From Chryseobacterium sp. FH1 (GTDB taxonomy: Bacteria; Bacteroidota; Bacteroidia; Flavobacteriales; Weeksellaceae), in the NCBI RefSeq assembly GCF_000735135.1, contig NZ_JPLZ01000006.1:1674001-1738000 (forward strand): a DNA stretch of 64,000 bases, given 5' to 3'. Positions 6,430-15,144 of this stretch are shown piece by piece. The translations under genes were made by a program, and so were the position numbers. The notes under the pieces were generated by a model. The model was not told the origin of the DNA and ran no database searches. It saw only the letters and a list, made by a program, of their open reading frames with translations. Every line of letters begins with the position of its first letter. Positions within the stretch are counted from its first letter, which is position 1.

Positions 6430-7671
6430 ATGTCAATATTAGAAATGAAAGTTCCTTCACCAGGAGAATCAATCACAGAAGTAGAAATTGCGACTTGGCT
6501 AGTACAAGACGGTGATTACGTAGAAAAAGATCAGCCAATTGCAGAAGTAGATTCTGATAAGGCAACTTTGGAACTTCCTGCTGAGCAAAGTGGAATCATC
6601 ACTTTGAAAGCTGAAGAAGGTGAAGTGGTTCAAGTTGGTCAAGTGGTTTGTCTTATTGATATGGATGCTGCAAAACCAGACGGTGGCGCTGCACCAGCTG
6701 CAGAAAAACCAAAAGAAGAGCCTAAAGCGGAAGAGAAAAAAGAAGAACCAGCACCAGCTCCAAAAGCCGAGGCTGCAAAAACTGAAACCTATGCTGCTCA
6801 AACACCTTCTCCTGCTGCTAAGAAAATCCTTGACGAAAAGGGAATTGCTCCAAGTCAGGTAAGCGGTTCTGGCAGAGACGGCAGAATTACAAAAGATGAC
6901 GCTGTTACAGCTTCGGTTCCTGCAATGGGAAGTGCAAGCGGTGGAAGCAGAGGAACATCAACTACAAAACTTTCAGTTCTTAGAAGAAAGATCGCTGCAA
7001 GATTGGTTTCAGTGAAAAACGAAACAGCAATGTTGACGACTTTCAACGAGGTTGATATGTCTGAGATCTTCAGAATCAGAAAACAATATAAAGAAGAATT
7101 CGCTGCAAAACACGGGATTGGTCTTGGATTTATGTCTTTCTTCACAAAAGCTGTAACCAGAGCATTGAAACTTTATCCAGATGTGAACGCTTCTATCGAC
7201 GGTGATTTCAAAACTAACTATGACTTTGCAGATATTTCTATCGCGGTTTCAGGACCAAAAGGTTTGATGGTGCCAGTTCTTAGAAATGCAGAAAATATGT
7301 CTCTAAGAGGTGTTGAAGCAAATATCAAAGATCTTGCTCTAAAAGTAAGAGATGGAAAAATCACAGTTGACGAGATGACTGGTGGAACATTCACTATCAC
7401 AAACGGTGGAACTTTTGGATCGATGTTATCGACGCCGATCATCAACCCGCCACAATCTGCAATCTTGGGAATGCACAACATCATCCAAAGACCGGTTGCT
7501 GTTGACGGACAAGTCGTTATCAGACCAATGATGTACGTTGCAATGTCTTATGACCACAGGATCATCGACGGAAAAGAATCCGTAGGTTTCTTGGTTGCTG
7601 TGAAAGAAGCAATCGACAATCCAGTAGAATTCCTAATGGATGGCGACGAAAGAAAAGCTTTGGAATTATAA
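6430..7671 (+). CDS. sucB: 2-oxoglutarate dehydrogenase E2 (dihydrolipoyl succinyltransferase)
   Basis: The protein transfers the succinyl group from its lipoyl arm to CoA. Residues 1-77 form one lipoyl domain with the modified lysine at K44 in the DSDKATLE motif. An Ala/Pro/Lys/Glu-rich flexible linker (about 80-125) follows. The E1/E3-binding domain (about 125-165) contains [13 protein letters not shown] and GRITKDD. The acyltransferase catalytic domain runs from ~185 to the end, with the active-site histidine H376 in DHRIIDG. One lipoyl domain and 413 residues match the succinyl type. It is the last gene of the sucAB unit and is followed 19 bp later by a strong terminator. Confidence 0.97.
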
Positions 7672-8547: not shown

Positions 8548-10289
8548 ATGGAAAATTTCATCGTATCCGCACGCAAGTACCGTCCGCAAGAGTTTGACAC
8601 TGTTGTTGGGCAATCGCACGTTACCGATACTTTGGAACACGCCATCGACGAAAGTCAATTGGCTCAGGCTCTGCTTTTCTGCGGACCAAGAGGTGTTGGT
8701 AAAACGACTTGCGCCAGAATTCTAGCAAGAAAAATCAATGAGAAGTCTGGAGCTGCAGATGATGACGGATTCGCATTCAATATTTATGAATTAGATGCCG
8801 CTTCGAATAACTCTGTTGATGATATTCGTGAATTGATTGACCAAGTGAGGTTTGCACCTCAAGTCGGAAAGTATAAAGTTTATATCATCGACGAGGTTCA
8901 TATGTTGTCTCAGGCTGCTTTCAACGCATTCCTGAAAACTTTGGAAGAACCGCCAGCACATGCTATTTTCATTTTAGCAACAACTGAGAAACACAAGATC
9001 ATTCCGACGATTCTTTCCAGATGTCAGATCTATGATTTCAAAAGAATCACGATTGAAGATATTCAGGAGCATTTGAGAAAGATTGCCGAGAAGGAAAATA
9101 TCACTTACGAAGACGATGCGCTTTACCTGATTGCTCAAAAGGCTGATGGTGCTTTGAGAGATGCTTTATCGATTTTTGATAGACTAAGTACTTTTTCTCA
9201 GAAAAATATTACGCTCGAAAAAGCAGCGGAAGTTCTCAATATTCTGGACTACGACCAATATCTGAAAATCGCTGATTTGGCGAAGGAAAATGATATTCCT
9301 GGTGTTTTAATCGCGTTCGACGAGATTGTGAAAAAAGGTTTCGACCCGCACATTTTCATTGCCGGATTGGGAAATCATTTCCGAGATCTAATGATGGCTC
9401 AGAATCCAAAAACTTTGAATCTGATCGAAGTTGGAGAAAAAACCAAATCCAAGTTTGCCGAGCAATCGCAAAAATGGAAAGCTCAGGAATTGATAGACGG
9501 CATTGAGATTTGTAATTTCGCCGACATCAATTATAAAAATTCCAAAAATCCACGTTTGACAGTTGAGATTGCCTTGATGCAATTATCAAGTCTCACGGCA
9601 GGTTTGGAAGCTAAAAAAAAAAGTTCTTAATATTAGCGCCACTTCTTGAAGCAAACCTGATTCAAGAGCCAAGTGTAAAGACTCAAGAGTCAAAACCAGA
9701 AGCTAAATCACCAGCAACCAACAACAATGTCATCCTGAGCGGAGTCGAAGGACAGCAACCAACAACCAAAATATCTTTCGAAGAACCTAAAAAGGTAATT
9801 CAGAAAGCATCTGAGCCGATTGCTAGAAGTTCTTCTAACTCTAAGTTCAGCATAAAAGCAGCTCTTGAGAAAAAGGAAGAAATTGTAAAGGATGAATTTG
9901 CAGAAATCAAAGATGAAAATCTGCCTTCAAACCATTTCTCACAGACCGATGTGGATAGAGAATGGGATATTTTTCTTAAAAATCTTGCTAGAACCAATAC
10001 TTTCGTCTACAACGCCATCAGCAGCTTCAAGTTAGAAAAAACGGATGAACATCAAATCACGGTCAAATATTCTTCTGAATTTGCAAAGTCAGAATTCGAT
10101 AGATTGAGTATCGAGTTCTTCAACCATTTCAAGCATAAAGTCAGCAACTTCAAAATTGAAATCGAATATCAGACAGATTTGACCATCAAAAAAGAAGTTT
10201 TGACCAAGCGTAAAATCTTCGAAAAATTTGTTGAAATTAATCCGCTACTGAAAGATCTGGATGATTTGATGCGTTTCGATTTGACTTAA
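8548..10289 (+). CDS. dnaX: DNA polymerase III gamma/tau subunit, two frames joined at an A10 run
   Basis: This is the clamp-loader ATPase. The zero frame (8548-9630, 360 residues) carries the AAA+ module: Walker A GPRGVGKTT at 46-54, Walker B DEVHML, and the SRC motif (SRCQIYDF). It stops at 9628-9630, just after ten consecutive A (9613-9622). The -1 frame is open from the A run to 10289 and encodes a low-complexity linker followed by a tau-like C-terminal domain (DREWDIFLKNLARTNTF onward). A -1 slip by the ribosome, or one extra A added by RNA polymerase, joins them into a ~580-residue tau; without slippage a gamma-like 360-residue form results. A sequencing error in the A run would give the same picture. 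The four-cysteine zinc module of E. coli DnaX is absent: only two cysteines occur in the first 120 residues. Confidence 0.88.
9613..9622 (+). promoter_or_regulatory. A10 slippery site in dnaX
   Basis: Ten A in a row follow codon GCT. In zero-frame register the codons are AAA AAA AAA AGT TCT TAA. The heptamer A-AAA-AAA at 9615-9621 fits the X-XXY-YYZ rule for -1 slippage by tandem lysine tRNAs, and runs of nine or more A also favour transcriptional slippage, as known for Thermus dnaX. The zero-frame stop is two codons beyond the run. Confidence 0.7.
9729..9753 (+). repeat. Family B repeat (CTGAGCGGAGTCGAAG) inside the dnaX tau linker
   Basis: The 16-base word CTGAGCGGAGTCGAAG, the core of the intergenic family B repeat, occurs once here in the tau reading frame and codes for residues within ILSGVEGQ. 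Other copies are at 14864, 21898, 29183 and 36302 in this window, all outside genes. Confidence 0.75.
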
Positions 10290-10374: not shown

Positions 10375-11826
10375 ATGACAAAACTAAACCTGATTATTCT
10401 GCTATTTTTATCGCTCAGCATTTTTGCACAAACTGAAAGTTCAAATGTTGATGAAATTATCAATCGTGAAATGAAAGAAAGAAGAATTCCTGGATTGCAA
10501 TTAGCGGTTGTTCAAAATGGAAAAATTGTTTTGAGTAAATCTTACGGCGTTGCAAATATCCAAGATAATATTCCGGTCAAAAACACGACCATTTTTCCAA
10601 TTAATTCTAATACAAAAATTTTCACTGGTGTTTCTGTAATGCAATTGGTCGAACAAGGTAAAATAGAACTCAATGCGCCTATCAAAAAATATCTAAATGA
10701 TTTACCTTCAGAATGGCAAAATATAACGGTTGACCAATTGCTGACGCATATTTCAGGATTGCCCGAAATCCTACAACTTCTTGATCCTCTCACTGGTAAC
10801 ATAGGTCCTTTAAAAACCGAACAAGCCATTTGGGAAAAACTGAAAACACTTCCTCTAGAATTTAAAACAGGTGAACAATTCAGTTACAATCAGACCAATT
10901 ATTATCTATTAGGAAAGATTATCGAAAAAGTCAGTAAACAATCATTTGCTAATAATTTCGAGCAGAAACAGTTTGAAATTGTTGGGATGAAACATACATT
11001 GTTTGGAGATTCAAGAGATTTGATTCCGCAATTTGCGCCTACTTATCGTTACAGAAATTTATTTGATAGCAAAAAAACTGATGATAAATTGGTTAATAAT
11101 TATACCGAATTTCCTGATTTTTTAAGAACCGGAGCGGGAGTCAATAGTACAGCTGAAGATATGGCAAACTGGATAATTGCTTTGCAAAATGGTCAATTAT
11201 TTCAAAAACCTGCAACATTAGATTTGATGTGGTCGCCAAACAAATTCAATGATGGGAATCCGACCAACTGGACACGAGGTTGGGGAATTGCAAAATTTAG
11301 AAAAAACCATAAAGCAATAGGAATGTCTGGCGGAAATAGATCCGCTTTGTTGATTTATCCGGATGATAAATTGGCAATCATTGTTTTGACAAATTTAGGC
11401 GGAAGTGCTCCTGAAGATTTTCTGGAAGAGATTGCAGGATGTTACAATGCGGATATTTTAGAAGCTGATCCTCTAACTTTTTTGAGGAAAAATCTTCGAG
11501 AAATTGGATTTGATAAGGCTATTGATTTTACAAAAAACACGAAAAAGAAAAATCCCGAATTTGAACCTCAAGAAGTAGAGTTGAATAATTGGGCATACAG
11601 AATGATGGCATATAATCAACAAACCGAGGCTTTGGAAATTTTCAAACTCAACGTTTATTTATTCCCTAAAAGCTGGAATGTTTATGACAGTTATGGAGAA
11701 GTATTGTTAAAAATAGGAGATAAAAATAAGTCAATAGAAATGTATAAAAAATCGATTGAACTAAATCCTAAAAACGAAAACGGAAAAGAAATGCTTTCTA
11801 AAATTGAGAAAGAAATTTCAAAGTAA
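10375..11826 (+). CDS. Secreted serine hydrolase (beta-lactamase/PBP fold) with TPR tail, degenerate motifs
   Basis: Residues 1-19 form a signal peptide (LIILLFLSLSIFAQ). Residues ~25-365 are a class C beta-lactamase-like serine hydrolase. The SxxK motif is S78-N-T-K81. The second motif, usually YxN, reads YNQ (FSYNQTNYYLLG), and the third, usually HxG, reads SGG (GMSGGN), so two of three catalytic motifs deviate. The last ~110 residues carry TPR-like helices (YDSYGEVLLKIGDKNKSIEM, IELNPKNENGKEML). The substrate is unknown; the family includes esterases, D-amino-peptidases and PBPs. It lies 18 bp before a paralogue of the same architecture, so the pair is probably one operon arising from duplication. 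Confidence 0.85.
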   Translation: MTKLNLIILLFLSLSIFAQTESSNVDEIINREMKERRIPGLQLAVVQNGKIVLSKSYGVANIQDNIPVKNTTIFPINSNTKIFTGVSVMQLVEQGKIELNAPIKKYLNDLPSEWQNITVDQLLTHISGLPEILQLLDPLTGNIGPLKTEQAIWEKLKTLPLEFKTGEQFSYNQTNYYLLGKIIEKVSKQSFANNFEQKQFEIVGMKHTLFGDSRDLIPQFAPTYRYRNLFDSKKTDDKLVNNYTEFPDFLRTGAGVNSTAEDMANWIIALQNGQLFQKPATLDLMWSPNKFNDGNPTNWTRGWGIAKFRKNHKAIGMSGGNRSALLIYPDDKLAIIVLTNLGGSAPEDFLEEIAGCYNADILEADPLTFLRKNLREIGFDKAIDFTKNTKKKNPEFEPQEVELNNWAYRMMAYNQQTEALEIFKLNVYLFPKSWNVYDSYGEVLLKIGDKNKSIEMYKKSIELNPKNENGKEMLSKIEKEISK

Positions 11827-11844: not shown

Positions 11845-13317
11845 ATGAAAAAACTACTTTCCATCATCATCATAACATTCGGATATTCCGCATTTGCCCA
11901 AAAAACTTTAACTGAAAAGCAAATTTATTCAGCAATGGATGCTCAGGCAGAAGCATTCTTGAAAGAATCAAAAGCAAATTCTTTCTCCATCGGAATCGTA
12001 AAAGACGGGAAAACTTACACCAGACATTACGGCGAAATCGACAAAGGAAAAGGCAATAAAGCCAATAATTCAACATTATTTGAAATCGCTTCTGTTACCA
12101 AATTATTTACCGGAACGTTGGTAGCGAAAGCTGTTCTGGATGGGAAAATAAGTTTGGATGACGACATCAGAAAATATATCACAGGTTCTTATCCGAACCT
12201 TCAATTTAATGGAACACCTGTAACGATTAAGGATTTGGTTTCACTGAAATCCGGTTTTAATAAAGATTTGCCAGACAGAAGTGAAGTGATGAAAGTAAGG
12301 AATGACAGCACTGCTTTCAAAGTTGAAAAATTAGAAAAAGCTTACACGAAAGAGCAGTTTTTCAAAGATTTGAAATCAATCAAAATAGAGGCTTTGCCAG
12401 GAACTGTCTATAATTATAACAACGGAACTCTACAACTGACAGCGCATATTCTTGAAAATGTTTATGGAAAAAGTTATGAGACTTTATTGAAGGAAAATAT
12501 CTTCATTCCTTTAAAATTAAATCACACAAAACTTCACATCAGTCAAAATGAAACCATCGCAAATGGTTACGATGGAAACGGCGTTCTGATGCCATTTTTG
12601 CCGTACTCACTTTGGGGCGCACAAGGTTATTTGAAATCATCATTAACTGATTTGACGACATTTTTGAAATTTGAATTGGATAAAAATAATCCGCTCGTTC
12701 AGGAATCACAAAGAGATCTACTTAATAATAAAAATTATTGGAACGCTTATTTTTGGGATGAAGTTACGGTAAATCACAACGGTCGAAATGCCAGAAAACA
12801 CGGTGGTGCTTTTGGGACGCAGAATTTGTTTTGGGTTTTTCCGGATTATAACATCGGTATTTCTGTGATCACCAATCAAGGTGGCGAAAATACTTATGGG
12901 AATCTATATAACGCTGTCCAAAATCTAATTGACGATTTGAAACCATTTGGACAAAAATTAATCGGAAGAGAAATCGAGAAAAAATGTTTTGAAAATATAG
13001 ATTCCGGAATTGCTTATTACAAAGAATTAAAGAAAAATAAACCCGATTCTTACAATTTTTCTGATGAATCTGAATTGAATAATCTTGGCTACAAATTGAT
13101 GAGAAGTGGAGCAGTAGAATCAGCCATCAAACTATTTAAACTCTACGTTTCCGAATTTCCAAACTCTGGAAATCCTTATGACAGCTTGGCTGAAGCTTAT
13201 TTTAATAATAAAGAGTATGCGCTTTCCAAACAGAATTATCAGAAAGCTATGGAGCTAAATCCAGATAATTCTAATGCGAAGGAAATGCTTTTGAAGATTG
13301 AAAACCAGACAAAATAA
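11845..13317 (+). CDS. Secreted serine hydrolase (beta-lactamase/PBP fold) with TPR tail
   Basis: This 490-residue protein is a paralogue of the upstream gene. A signal peptide ends near FAQ (residue ~19). The catalytic motifs are intact: SxxK at S83-V-T-K86, YNN at Y191-N192-N193, and HGG starting at H319. The C-terminal ~100 residues contain TPR-like helices (NPYDSLAEAYFNNKEYALSK, YQKAMELNPDNSNAKEML). It is expected to act in the periplasm or outside the cell as a hydrolase of unknown substrate. The intact motifs beside the altered ones in its neighbour suggest that the two have diverged in function. Confidence 0.87.
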   Translation: MKKLLSIIIITFGYSAFAQKTLTEKQIYSAMDAQAEAFLKESKANSFSIGIVKDGKTYTRHYGEIDKGKGNKANNSTLFEIASVTKLFTGTLVAKAVLDGKISLDDDIRKYITGSYPNLQFNGTPVTIKDLVSLKSGFNKDLPDRSEVMKVRNDSTAFKVEKLEKAYTKEQFFKDLKSIKIEALPGTVYNYNNGTLQLTAHILENVYGKSYETLLKENIFIPLKLNHTKLHISQNETIANGYDGNGVLMPFLPYSLWGAQGYLKSSLTDLTTFLKFELDKNNPLVQESQRDLLNNKNYWNAYFWDEVTVNHNGRNARKHGGAFGTQNLFWVFPDYNIGISVITNQGGENTYGNLYNAVQNLIDDLKPFGQKLIGREIEKKCFENIDSGIAYYKELKKNKPDSYNFSDESELNNLGYKLMRSGAVESAIKLFKLYVSEFPNSGNPYDSLAEAYFNNKEYALSKQNYQKAMELNPDNSNAKEMLLKIENQTK

Positions 13318-13406
13318 AAATAGAGCTTAATTTCATTTTCCTACAACATTTATCACTTAATGAAAAAATAATTGCACAATCATAGTTCTCATTTCCCATT
13401 AATTTA

Positions 13407-13414
13407 TATATTTG
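13407..13414 (+). promoter_or_regulatory. Candidate -7 box for the aromatic leader transcript
   Basis: TATATTTG matches TAnnTTTG. Transcription would begin near 13420, at the start of the 9-bp inverted repeat, about 70 nt before the leader ORF. The nearest upstream TTG (13372-13374) is too far away for a standard -33 box. Confidence 0.5.
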
Positions 13415-13419
13415 TCCAA

Positions 13420-13444
13420 GATTTCGACCACAATAGTCGAAATC
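13420..13444 (+). other. Perfect inverted repeat at the predicted leader 5' end
   Basis: GATTTCGAC and GTCGAAATC form a perfect 9-bp stem with a 7-nt loop. A second hairpin (GCCTT/AAGGC, loop CCAGT) lies at 13466-13482 just before the leader ATG. They may be RNA stem-loops protecting or controlling the leader, or the first may be an operator; the sequence does not decide. Confidence 0.55.
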
Positions 13445-13490
13445 AATTAACTCAATCAAGCTAAAAAGCCTTCCAGTAAGGCATTTACAA

Positions 13491-13619
13491 ATGGAATCAA
13501 TCCAATTTCCATATCTTTCAACTTTTGCATCTGCCGAGTATTTTGGTGGATCATTTAGCTTTTTTGGATCTTATTATAGAAATTTTAGAAACTATTACCG
13601 ATTTTATTGGTTTAGCTAA
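13491..13619 (+). CDS. Putative Phe/Tyr-rich leader peptide upstream of DAHP synthase-chorismate mutase
   Basis: A 42-codon ORF runs from ATG 13491 to TAA 13617-13619. Its product has 9 Phe, 7 Tyr and 1 Trp, about 40% aromatic, with the densest stretch at the end (residues 28-41, YYRNFRNYYRFYWF). It lies 149 bp before the gene for the first enzyme of aromatic amino-acid synthesis fused to chorismate mutase. This is the design expected of an attenuation leader: shortage of Phe or Tyr would stall the ribosome and alter folding downstream. A stem GTGGAA/TTCCGC (13644-13664) follows, but I see no clear GC-rich hairpin with a T run, so the regulatory end-point is unresolved. The function is inferred from composition and position. 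Confidence 0.6.
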   Translation: MESIQFPYLSTFASAEYFGGSFSFFGSYYRNFRNYYRFYWFS

Positions 13620-13768
13620 CTAGATTTCTTTCTCAAAAATCCCGTGGAATATTTCAGACTTCCGCAACTCATTTAAAGTTTTTAAACGTTATTTTTTGGA
13701 AAAGAATTATAAATCAACATTTATAACAGATATACTATTGCATTAATTTAAAATAAAAAATTAGAAAT

Positions 13769-14848
13769 ATGAACCTTAATGAATTAAAAAATGATTGGAT
13801 CAAAGACTTCGCAAATCCAATGATCATCGCAGGACCTTGTAGCGCAGAGAGCGAATCTCAAATGTTGGAAACAGCAAAACAACTGAAGGAAAGTGGTGCA
13901 GAGATTTCCGCTTTCCGTGCAGGGATCTGGAAACCGAGAACAAAACCAAACGGTTTCGAAGGCGTTGGCGTAATTGGTCTCAATTGGCTGAAAAAAGTAA
14001 AAGAAGAGTACGGTTTCAAAACAGCAACTGAGGTTGCAAATGCGCACCACGTTTTCGCAGCGTTGGAAGCAGATGTTGACATTCTTTGGATTGGTGCGCG
14101 TTCTACGGTGAATCCTTTCACTGTTCAAGAAATCGCTCAGGCTTTGCGCGGAACCAACAAACCAATTTTGGTGAAAAATCCAGTGAATCCAGATTTAGCA
14201 CTTTGGATCGGTGCTTTGGAAAGATTGCTAGGTCAAGGGATTGAAAATGTTGGTGCCATTCACAGAGGTTTTTCAACGTACCAAAAAACGAAGTATAGAA
14301 ATATTCCGAACTGGCAGATTGCCTTGGATTTCAAAAATCAATTTCCAAATATCCCATTGTTCATAGATCCGTCGCACATTTGTGGAAACAGAACTGGTTT
14401 GGCCGGCGTTGCGCAGGAAGCGTTCAACGTAGGTTACCAAGGTGCGATCATCGAGAGTCACAACGATCCGGACAACGCTTGGAGCGATGCTTCTCAGCAG
14501 ATCACGCCAAAAGTTTTGGCCGAGATGATAGGCAATCTTCAGATTCGTAATTCCGATATTTCTGGGTACGAAGACGAGATGGGAAAACACCGAACGCTCA
14601 TCAGCGATATGGATTTCCAATTGATCGAATTGTTGTCGCAAAGAATGAAAATCTCTGAAAAAATCGGAAATCTGAAAAAAGAAAACAACATCGCCATCTT
14701 CCAGCCAGAACGTTGGAAAGTGATCACAGAATATGCGAACCAAAAAGCCAGCGAAACAGGAATGTCCCAAGAATTCATCGAGAAAGTTTTCAAAGCGATC
14801 CACGAAGAAAGCATCGAGGTGCAGAATAATATTATGATTGACAAATAA
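13769..14848 (+). CDS. Bifunctional DAHP synthase / chorismate mutase
   Basis: The N-terminal ~260 residues are a type I beta (KDOPS-like) 3-deoxy-D-arabino-heptulosonate-7-phosphate synthase: PMIIAGPCSAES near residue 17, the GIWKPRTKP loop, and the metal and phosphate ligands in FIDPSHICGNR. Residues ~265-359 are an AroQ-type chorismate mutase (MDFQLIELLSQRMKISEKIG ... YANQKA). The protein thus catalyses entry to the shikimate pathway and the branch toward Phe and Tyr; in characterised fusions of this type the mutase domain also mediates feedback control. It stands alone with a ~350-nt upstream region containing an aromatic-rich leader ORF. The usual symbol differs between species, so none is given. 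Confidence 0.95.
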   Translation: MNLNELKNDWIKDFANPMIIAGPCSAESESQMLETAKQLKESGAEISAFRAGIWKPRTKPNGFEGVGVIGLNWLKKVKEEYGFKTATEVANAHHVFAALEADVDILWIGARSTVNPFTVQEIAQALRGTNKPILVKNPVNPDLALWIGALERLLGQGIENVGAIHRGFSTYQKTKYRNIPNWQIALDFKNQFPNIPLFIDPSHICGNRTGLAGVAQEAFNVGYQGAIIESHNDPDNAWSDASQQITPKVLAEMIGNLQIRNSDISGYEDEMGKHRTLISDMDFQLIELLSQRMKISEKIGNLKKENNIAIFQPERWKVITEYANQKASETGMSQEFIEKVFKAIHEESIEVQNNIMIDK

Positions 14849-15078: not shown

Positions 15079-15116
15079 AACCCTTTCAGAATTCAAACTC
15101 TGAAAGGGTTTTTATT
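15079..15116 (+). terminator. Rho-independent terminator
   Basis: A perfect 12-bp stem (AACCCTTTCAGA / TCTGAAAGGGTT) with an 8-nt loop is followed by TTTATTT. It would end transcription from the DAHP synthase gene ahead of the rsgA promoter. Confidence 0.9.
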
Positions 15117-15144
15117 TGTCAACACGATAAAAGCTTTAACTTTG
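15115..15144 (+). promoter_or_regulatory. Promoter of rsgA (TTTG-N18-TAACTTTG)
   Basis: TTTG at 15115-15118 and TAACTTTG at 15137-15144 match the Bacteroidetes -33 and -7 elements with an 18-nt spacer. Transcription would start about 15 nt before the TTG start codon of rsgA. Confidence 0.65.

Follow-up and report, generated by a model that had tools for sequence, protein, structure and literature searches.

An aromatic-rich leader ORF with conserved RNA pairings precedes the DAHP synthase-chorismate mutase gene of Chryseobacterium and Epilithonimonas and probably acts as a ribosome-sensed attenuator

The window analysed here, a stretch of 64,000 nt from Chryseobacterium sp. FH1, contains a 42-codon leader open reading frame (ORF) rich in Phe, Tyr and Trp codons (13491-13619, plus strand; MESIQFPYLSTFASAEYFGGSFSFFGSYYRNFRNYYRFYWFS*), which is separated by 149 nt from the gene that follows on the same strand, a fusion of DAHP synthase and type II chorismate mutase (13769-14848, ATG at 13769). 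The product of this gene, the presumed target, carries DAHP_synth_1 (PF00793) and CM_2 (PF01817) domains; spacing and product are as given in a first-pass annotation made from the letters of this DNA. Judged by the domain matches, the gene serves the synthesis of the same amino acids as those specified by the leader codons. A recount of the 42 residues returned the 9 Phe, 7 Tyr and 1 Trp reported earlier; the densest 14 residues (YYRNFRNYYRFYWF, codons 28-41, 13572-13613, plus strand) hold 9 aromatics, not the 10 that had been claimed. The promoter box placed at 13407 is present (TATATTTG, 13407-13414, plus strand), and we take it to be a -7 box of the Bacteroidetes type, TAnnTTTG. With an aromatic fraction of 0.405 the leader ORF ranks first among the 568 ORFs of 25-70 amino acids in the window (the next reaches 0.36), and 6 of 3000 shuffles of the intergenic region yielded an ORF with 17 aromatics. 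A 14-residue stretch with 10 aromatics exists elsewhere in the window, on the minus strand near 6700, so the cluster alone is not unique and conservation has to decide.

Several features of the neighbouring DNA were also recorded. The upstream dnaX gene (8548-10289) occupies two reading frames, which part at ten consecutive A (GCTAAAAAAAAAAGTTC, near 9611-9627), and the second of them continues to 10289; either slippage that yields two forms or a sequencing error in the homopolymer could account for this. Two tandem serine hydrolase genes (10375-11826 and 11845-13317) separate dnaX from the leader, encoding Beta-lactamase domains (PF00144) and C-terminal TPR repeats, both of them far under the NCBIfam cut-offs for class C beta-lactamases. 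On the 3' side of the DAHP synthase gene, a canonical intrinsic terminator is found at about 15079-15118 (AACCCTTTCAGA..TCTGAAAGGGTTTTTATTT), and standard terminators are therefore used in the source genome.

The named relatives of the source genome are mostly Epilithonimonas. The DAHP synthase-chorismate mutase orthologue occurs in all 23 Epilithonimonas genomes and the leader ORF in 22 of them, the exception being E. bovis, in which the contig stops 147 bases before the gene. In Chryseobacterium (genus g20) the leader is present in 96 of 99 genomes; upstream DNA was read in 97, and the two others (G152 and G172) were judged by their match to a leader profile. Of the 97 upstream regions, 90 fit the motif search, four are clear variants (L180, L181, L182 and L186), two contain eroded leaders (L179 and L185) and one has none (L187). 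Both genomes of genus g32 carry the leader, and it was found in none of the 29 other genera of the family, each examined through one representative and the two most aromatic ORFs in the 450 nt upstream; in 16 of these 29 one of the ORFs listed there, read by eye, ends like dnaX. A set of named loci (L057-L117) drawn largely from the same genomes has the leader in 57 of 61 cases, without it being L082, L099, L107 and L112. The 16-row leader profile matches a single place in the source genome, and across 395 genomes of the order it reached E <= 1.7e-5 only in 7 Epilithonimonas and 41 Chryseobacterium genomes; weaker matches, seven elsewhere (E 0.001-0.007) and two second ones in Chryseobacterium (E 0.008-0.009), look like noise. 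We rejected YYRFYW leaders outside the family, for which the DNA pattern occurs in 60 of the 395 genomes: the loci that were read, 22 from other families and one from genus g16, looked like unrelated frames. All 136 leaders collected have TAnnTTTG 5' of the ORF, 71-98 nt from the assigned leader start codon (48 nt in two rows). The comparison with relatives proposed in the first-pass annotation thus found the ORF, its cluster, the promoter box and the position kept in three genera, and not the lack of conservation that had been named as the refuting outcome.

Substitution patterns, computed over pooled leader pairs without a tree, differ along the ORF. The ratio pN/pS was 0.82 for codons 2-26 versus 0.41 for codons 27-42 among 19 distinct Epilithonimonas leaders, and 0.65 versus 0.19 among 41 distinct leaders of 42 codons from Chryseobacterium and g32, so that the aromatic cluster lies in the part with low pN/pS. 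Aromatic residues number between 6 and 14 in the last 22 codons (mean 11.9). A Trp codon occurs there in 136 of 136 leaders, a count that is partly built in because most of these leaders were collected by a Trp-containing motif. The Trp codon is also found in all leaders identified first by aromatic content alone and in those that failed the motif (L098, L179-L182 and L186); the eroded L185 is without it. Of the earlier proposal of a Phe/Tyr attenuator, the Phe and Tyr codons stand, but the conserved cluster takes in the Trp codon too. The leader ORF is conserved and, as far as these ratios indicate, is under selection for translation.

The RNA pairings before and inside the ORF were compared between genomes by swapping arms among leaders. 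For the hairpins P0, P2 and P4 this test is biased, since the split between arms was chosen on the own fold, and the bias alone produced z values of -0.9 to -6.0 in shuffles and -4.5 in one ORF control; the fixed-window test and the map of 300 window pairs described below are free of it. In the biased test only P0 (z -8.6) and P2 (z -7.3) of Chryseobacterium stand out. P0 (13420-13444, plus strand, -11.2 kcal/mol) is a hairpin where the transcript is expected to begin; shuffles of the same segment under the same biased procedure gave -4.0 to -6.0, and in Epilithonimonas its score could not be told apart from those of the shuffles. A small hairpin, GCCTT/AAGGC (13468-13482, plus strand, -5.5 kcal/mol), follows before the leader start codon, so both hairpins described earlier on the 5' side of the ORF hold up. 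Inside the ORF, before the cluster, lies the conserved hairpin Pa (13529-13551, plus strand). With the best hairpin taken in each, 132 of 136 leaders have a stem of at least five pairs that reaches -5 kcal/mol, and in 133 of 136 the hairpin begins only a few nt from position -90 relative to the stop. Its mean energy is -8.7 kcal/mol (best hairpin per leader), and it is followed by a T-rich stretch with on average 9.4 T in 16 nt. The arms of Pa vary yet match (ATCTGTCA/TGACAGAT, ATCTATCA/TGATAGAT, CCGCTAA/TTAGCGG and CTGCTTA/TAAGCAG), and fixed-window swaps gave z -6.6 for 40 Chryseobacterium leaders and z -3.3 for 11 leaders of Epilithonimonas and g32 (0/5000 each), with control windows nearby at -0.2 to 2.5. 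The pairing Pb, seen in computed folds, joins AAGCTAAA before the ORF (13458-13465, plus strand) to TTTAGCTT inside it (13554-13561, plus strand); its own arms scored -11.1 and swapped arms -8.6 in the 40 Chryseobacterium leaders (z -7.5, 0/5000), with z -1.9 (149/5000) in the 11 Epilithonimonas and g32 leaders. Pb spans the leader's own start codon and could also limit new ribosomes on the leader.

The pairing P1 links the aromatic cluster to the DNA behind the stop codon. Its 5' arm, over the R-N-F-R codons 30-33 (AGAAATTTTAG, 13578-13588, plus strand), pairs with 13622-13629; fixed-window swaps gave z -4.4 in Chryseobacterium (0/5000) and -1.6 in Epilithonimonas with g32 (353/5000), and in Epilithonimonas alone the fixed-window signals of both P1 and Pb are weak. 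The third base of the Phe codon and its post-stop partner are CG in 80, TA in 35, CA in 10 and TG in 3 of the 136 leaders, with 8 different or unread. On a gene tree of 88 sequences these sites changed 11 and 8 times, with 4 changes on the same branch against 0.81 expected (P=0.0037). In L106, L108, L110 and L116, of 43 leaders aligned, the RNFR residues are replaced, yet a shift by one base keeps the DNA arm paired; partly because these rows are misaligned, the alignment counts are mixed (joint-change cells 30 versus 17.6, 0/500; joint-change pairs 7 versus 7.5, 369/500). P1 encloses an inner hairpin (13592-13612, plus strand) that appears in the fold, ranks second of the 300 window pairs (z -3.6) and also encodes YRFYW. 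The covariation check suggested with the original observation therefore gave support, in arm-swap tests and in the tree test of P1, to the stems that involve the ORF.

Behind the stop codon is the conserved element X (13620-13640, plus strand), the first part of which is the 3' arm of P1 and the rest of which can pair with a later segment, Y. Between the two are the hairpin P2 (13644-13665, plus strand; GTGGAA/TTCCGC, arms 13644-13649 and 13660-13665; -5.8 kcal/mol) and the weak AT hairpin P3 (13666-13691, plus strand; 0.0 kcal/mol alone, mean -1.4 kcal/mol over 126 leaders). Y itself (13691-13706, plus strand), a T-tract followed by GGAAAAGAA, was identified by conservation and folding; the hairpin P4 (TTATAAAT/ATTTATAA, 13707-13726, plus strand) comes next and, read by eye, is kept with changed bases in the eroded L179 and L185. 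In P2, three of five pairs changed on both sides, with only 70.6% of alignment cells paired. The GTGGAA/TTCCGC stem had been put forward as a possible control stem: it does exist as a conserved hairpin, but the stem that a stalled ribosome would break is P1. In an unbiased map of 300 window pairs, built from 24 chosen Chryseobacterium leaders anchored at the stop, the best pair was a pseudoknot between the P2 loop and bases beyond P4 (z -4.1); besides the inner hairpin of P1, the top pairs included the P1 window (-3.1), P2, Pa and Pb (-2.9 each) and P4 (-2.6), against a mean of 0.05 and a standard deviation of 1.23 over the map, with one pair above +3. With long segments the pseudoknot is marginal (102/5000, 40 leaders), and that test did not show it in Epilithonimonas. 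Comparison between genomes supports a conserved, selected leader with the predicted pairings Pa, Pb and P1 and, in Chryseobacterium, also P2, P4 and the pseudoknot.

An alternative to P1 is offered by the complementarity of ATTTCTTTCTCAAAAA, just after the stop, to TTTTTTGGAAAAGAA, about 50 nt further on. We modelled folding with a ribosome whose assumed footprint reaches from 18 nt upstream to 14 nt downstream of the first A-site base, so that codons 28, 29, 32, 35, 36, 38 and 39 are the positions from which it covers the P1 arm. In the window the fold without a ribosome has 7.1 pairs of P1 and 4.8 of X:Y, and a ribosome on codon 28, 32, 35 or 36 gives 0 and 11.9-12.6, respectively; with the ribosome on Phe codons 23-24 P1 stays intact, and at the stop neither pairing forms. 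On the Trp codon (40) P1 is lost and X:Y stays at 4.3, so the model does not support a Trp response by the X:Y route. A ribosome stalled in the cluster would thus disrupt P1, whose pairing rests on covariation and whose position relative to the codons rests on modelling. Over the 136 leaders X:Y averages 6.6 pairs free, 11.3 stalled and 2.3 with the ribosome at the stop; more than 6 pairs form in 123 of 136 leaders when stalled and in 77 of 136 without a ribosome, and the diverged L023 has no X:Y in the stalled fold. In these computations X:Y would be about as stable as P1 when no ribosome is present. The X core forms 11.4 pairs with the DNA downstream, a number that falls to 3.2 when that DNA is shuffled (30 chosen leaders; 19 of 360 shuffles are as high as the real sequence). 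No X:Y pair changed on both sides (equalled by 500 of 500 shuffles), own X:Y arms were no better than swapped ones, X:Y falls outside the best 22 of the 300 window pairs from the 24 Chryseobacterium leaders, and 28 of 568 T-run sites in the window pair with X at least equally well. In L182, L183, L184 and L186 the long T-tract is lost, X, the GAAAAGAA core and P4 are kept and, read by eye, X has gained a T opposite the kept GAAAAGAA. The X:Y alternative to P1 is a plausible prediction, not a proven one, and comes without covariation.

Taken together, we read the leader as a ribosome-sensed attenuator that reports aromatic amino acid supply to the enzyme of the shared first step, with a probability of roughly two in three. 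Transcription would start near 13420, and Pa with its T-rich stretch would probably hold RNA polymerase back for the first ribosome to catch up, after which the two would move jointly. Pause hairpins are known, and the role given to Pa is modelled on them; the trp and his leaders of E. coli also use one. With plentiful aromatics the ribosome would leave at the stop, and codons 30-33 would pair with the post-stop arm in P1 and hold X (OFF). When charged Phe or Tyr tRNA, perhaps also Trp tRNA, runs short, the ribosome would halt in the cluster, P1 would be broken and X freed to pair with Y around P2 and P3, next to P4 (ON). From the role of the gene, we infer that starvation raises expression.

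The same genomes provide a point of comparison in the leader of trpE. All 23 Epilithonimonas genomes have a short upstream ORF with WWW codons there (MK.MN..NWWWLSNSLSGLKGLSVF or close; L314, G000:C3:151335-151778 and upstream, outside the window; L292-L313), with a hairpin and T-tract behind it as read by eye, and by its sequence layout this is a classical trp attenuator in Flavobacteriia. The two leaders have in common regulatory codons in a short ORF; they differ in that the trp leader is followed by a strong hairpin and T-tract (-14.8 kcal/mol in the source genome), whereas the DAHP synthase leader is without one. A search for the most aromatic ORF per locus in 23 genomes showed no conserved aromatic leader before the prephenate dehydratase gene (at L276 another gene was read).

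A transcription attenuator ending in an intrinsic terminator, formed by P3 with the T-tract or by Pa with the T-rich stretch inside the ORF, would fit the classical attenuator before trpE in the same genus, the wide conservation of a T-tract about 70 nt after the stop, and the stability of Pa together with the T content behind it. In computed folds of RNA cut at the T-tract, P3 pairing was also lower when stalled in 61 of 126 leaders and higher in 15 (4.5 pairs free, 3.6 stalled). We nevertheless regard this explanation as unlikely. No standard terminator had been noticed between 13620 and 13768, and none was found on re-examination: a 36-nt segment with the T-tract at its 3' end has a folding energy of 0.0 kcal/mol, and a terminator pattern scan of 13300-13900 picked up only two stems, Pa within the ORF (13529-13551) and another on the minus strand. 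For hairpins on the 5' side of the T-tract the mean energy in the 126 leaders is -1.4 kcal/mol, against -14.8 kcal/mol for the trpE terminator of the source genome, and the four lineages named above dispensed with the long T-tract while X, the core and P4 remain; a terminator at the T-tract was rejected on this hairpin energy and on these lineages. The T-rich stretch behind Pa is interrupted and, since Pa precedes the aromatic cluster, any terminator at that point would lie behind RNA polymerase by the time the codons are read. A search of Rfam over 13300-13900 produced four matches, all on the minus strand and under gathering scores (best E 2.4).

Translational attenuation would have Y, or some other segment, cover the A-rich start region, which like the mRNAs of Flavobacteriia in general lacks a Shine-Dalgarno site, and X release it by capturing Y. 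In its favour, Y pairs with the start region more when X is blocked than when the ribosome is stalled (2.18 versus 0.61 pairs; difference above 1 in 56 of 126 leaders). Initiation in Bacteroidetes relies on adenines and low structure, as stated in passages of PMC6847099. Against this, the computed accessibility of positions -25 to +3 in the 126 leaders is 0.605 with X blocked and 0.613 stalled, rising by 0.05 in 23 of 126 and falling in 15 of 126; occlusion of the start codon by Y finds no support in these near-equal values, and we consider translational attenuation improbable. It is very improbable that the conserved C-terminus acts as a regulatory nascent peptide, arresting the ribosome by sensing free aromatics in the manner of TnaC and not by slow decoding. 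An alignment of 16 leaders has M1, Y36, R37, Y39 and W40 unchanged in every row and the C-terminal codons are the most constrained by pN/pS, but P1 and its inner hairpin use the same bases, the RNFR residues change while the RNA arm persists, and a biosynthetic gene would, unless the response is inverted, need the opposite sign from an arrest that a plentiful ligand triggers. That the ORF encodes a functional small protein with a role in trans, for which conservation over three genera and pN/pS below 1 would speak, is harder still to credit: the N-terminal half shows little constraint (0.65-0.82), for which Pa and Pb partly account, the peptide has no Pfam match, and each matching genome has a single copy before one gene, apart from two exceptions with weak second matches. 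Short aromatic-rich stretches are not rare in AT-rich DNA, but conservation and selection together indicate that the leader ORF is not a chance frame of odd composition, an explanation to which we give practically no weight.

Returning to the ribosome-sensed attenuator, a few candidates can be named for the step by which the ON fold would act on the gene. Our first guess, which we put at a little under even odds, is that the ON fold shields the untranslated 149 nt from premature, factor-dependent termination by Rho; protection from decay is a doubtful second guess, and an effect on translation a third and more doubtful one. A fuller version of the attenuator, tentative and to our mind clearly below an even chance, dispenses with both terminator and Shine-Dalgarno control: the stalled ribosome would reshape a compact pseudoknotted element (X:Y around P2 and P3, stacked on P4 and, in Chryseobacterium, with the P2 loop bound beyond P4), and the folded element itself would turn the gene on. 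It would have arisen within the Chryseobacterium-Epilithonimonas group, before a gene that follows dnaX in much of the family.

Most of what is known about ribosome-sensed attenuation comes from Proteobacteria and Gram-positives. The pheL-pheA, pheST and trpL leaders of E. coli use Rho-independent terminators. The leader uORFs mgtL, corL and speFL work by way of Rho or RNA structure and not by an intrinsic terminator, a stalled ribosome altering both the leader fold and premature termination; these respond to other signals and precede other genes, and a part for Rho in the present case is only a guess. The closest precedent is the AroR leader before aroF of Corynebacterium glutamicum (Neshat et al. 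2014, cited in PMC11802643; the aroF leader also figures in PMC4046766); there too aromatic codons in a leader peptide precede the gene of a DAHP synthase, and ribosome stalling under Phe limitation raises transcription according to the relevant passages of PMC11802643. By the description in those passages alone, AroR is set apart by its Phe-Tyr-Phe codons, its lack of a Tyr response and its occurrence in another phylum; unlike AroR, the leader described here has 17 aromatic codons including Trp, no terminator after it and several conserved stems that involve the ORF. The E. coli pheL-pheA, pheST and trpL leaders are, in the same passages of PMC11802643, also leader peptides controlling aromatic genes, and the DAHP synthase genes of that organism are placed there under TyrR and TrpR; those leaders control terminal branches or a tRNA synthetase, whereas here the shared first step is concerned. 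For Bacteroides, an excerpt of PMC7366714 describes sORFs reminiscent of leader peptides that need validation, passages of PMC10219788 name no Bacteroidetes case, and PMC4833913 cites Lopatovskaya et al. 2010. No published report of this leader was among the matches listed in a literature search whose coverage mostly leaves out subscription journals.

The locus would thus represent a well-conserved case in Flavobacteriia, placed at the entry enzyme of a three-product pathway and with at least four covarying pairings in the leader. The missing terminator makes the output step a direct and answerable question, and the classical trp attenuator in the same genomes makes a side-by-side comparison possible.
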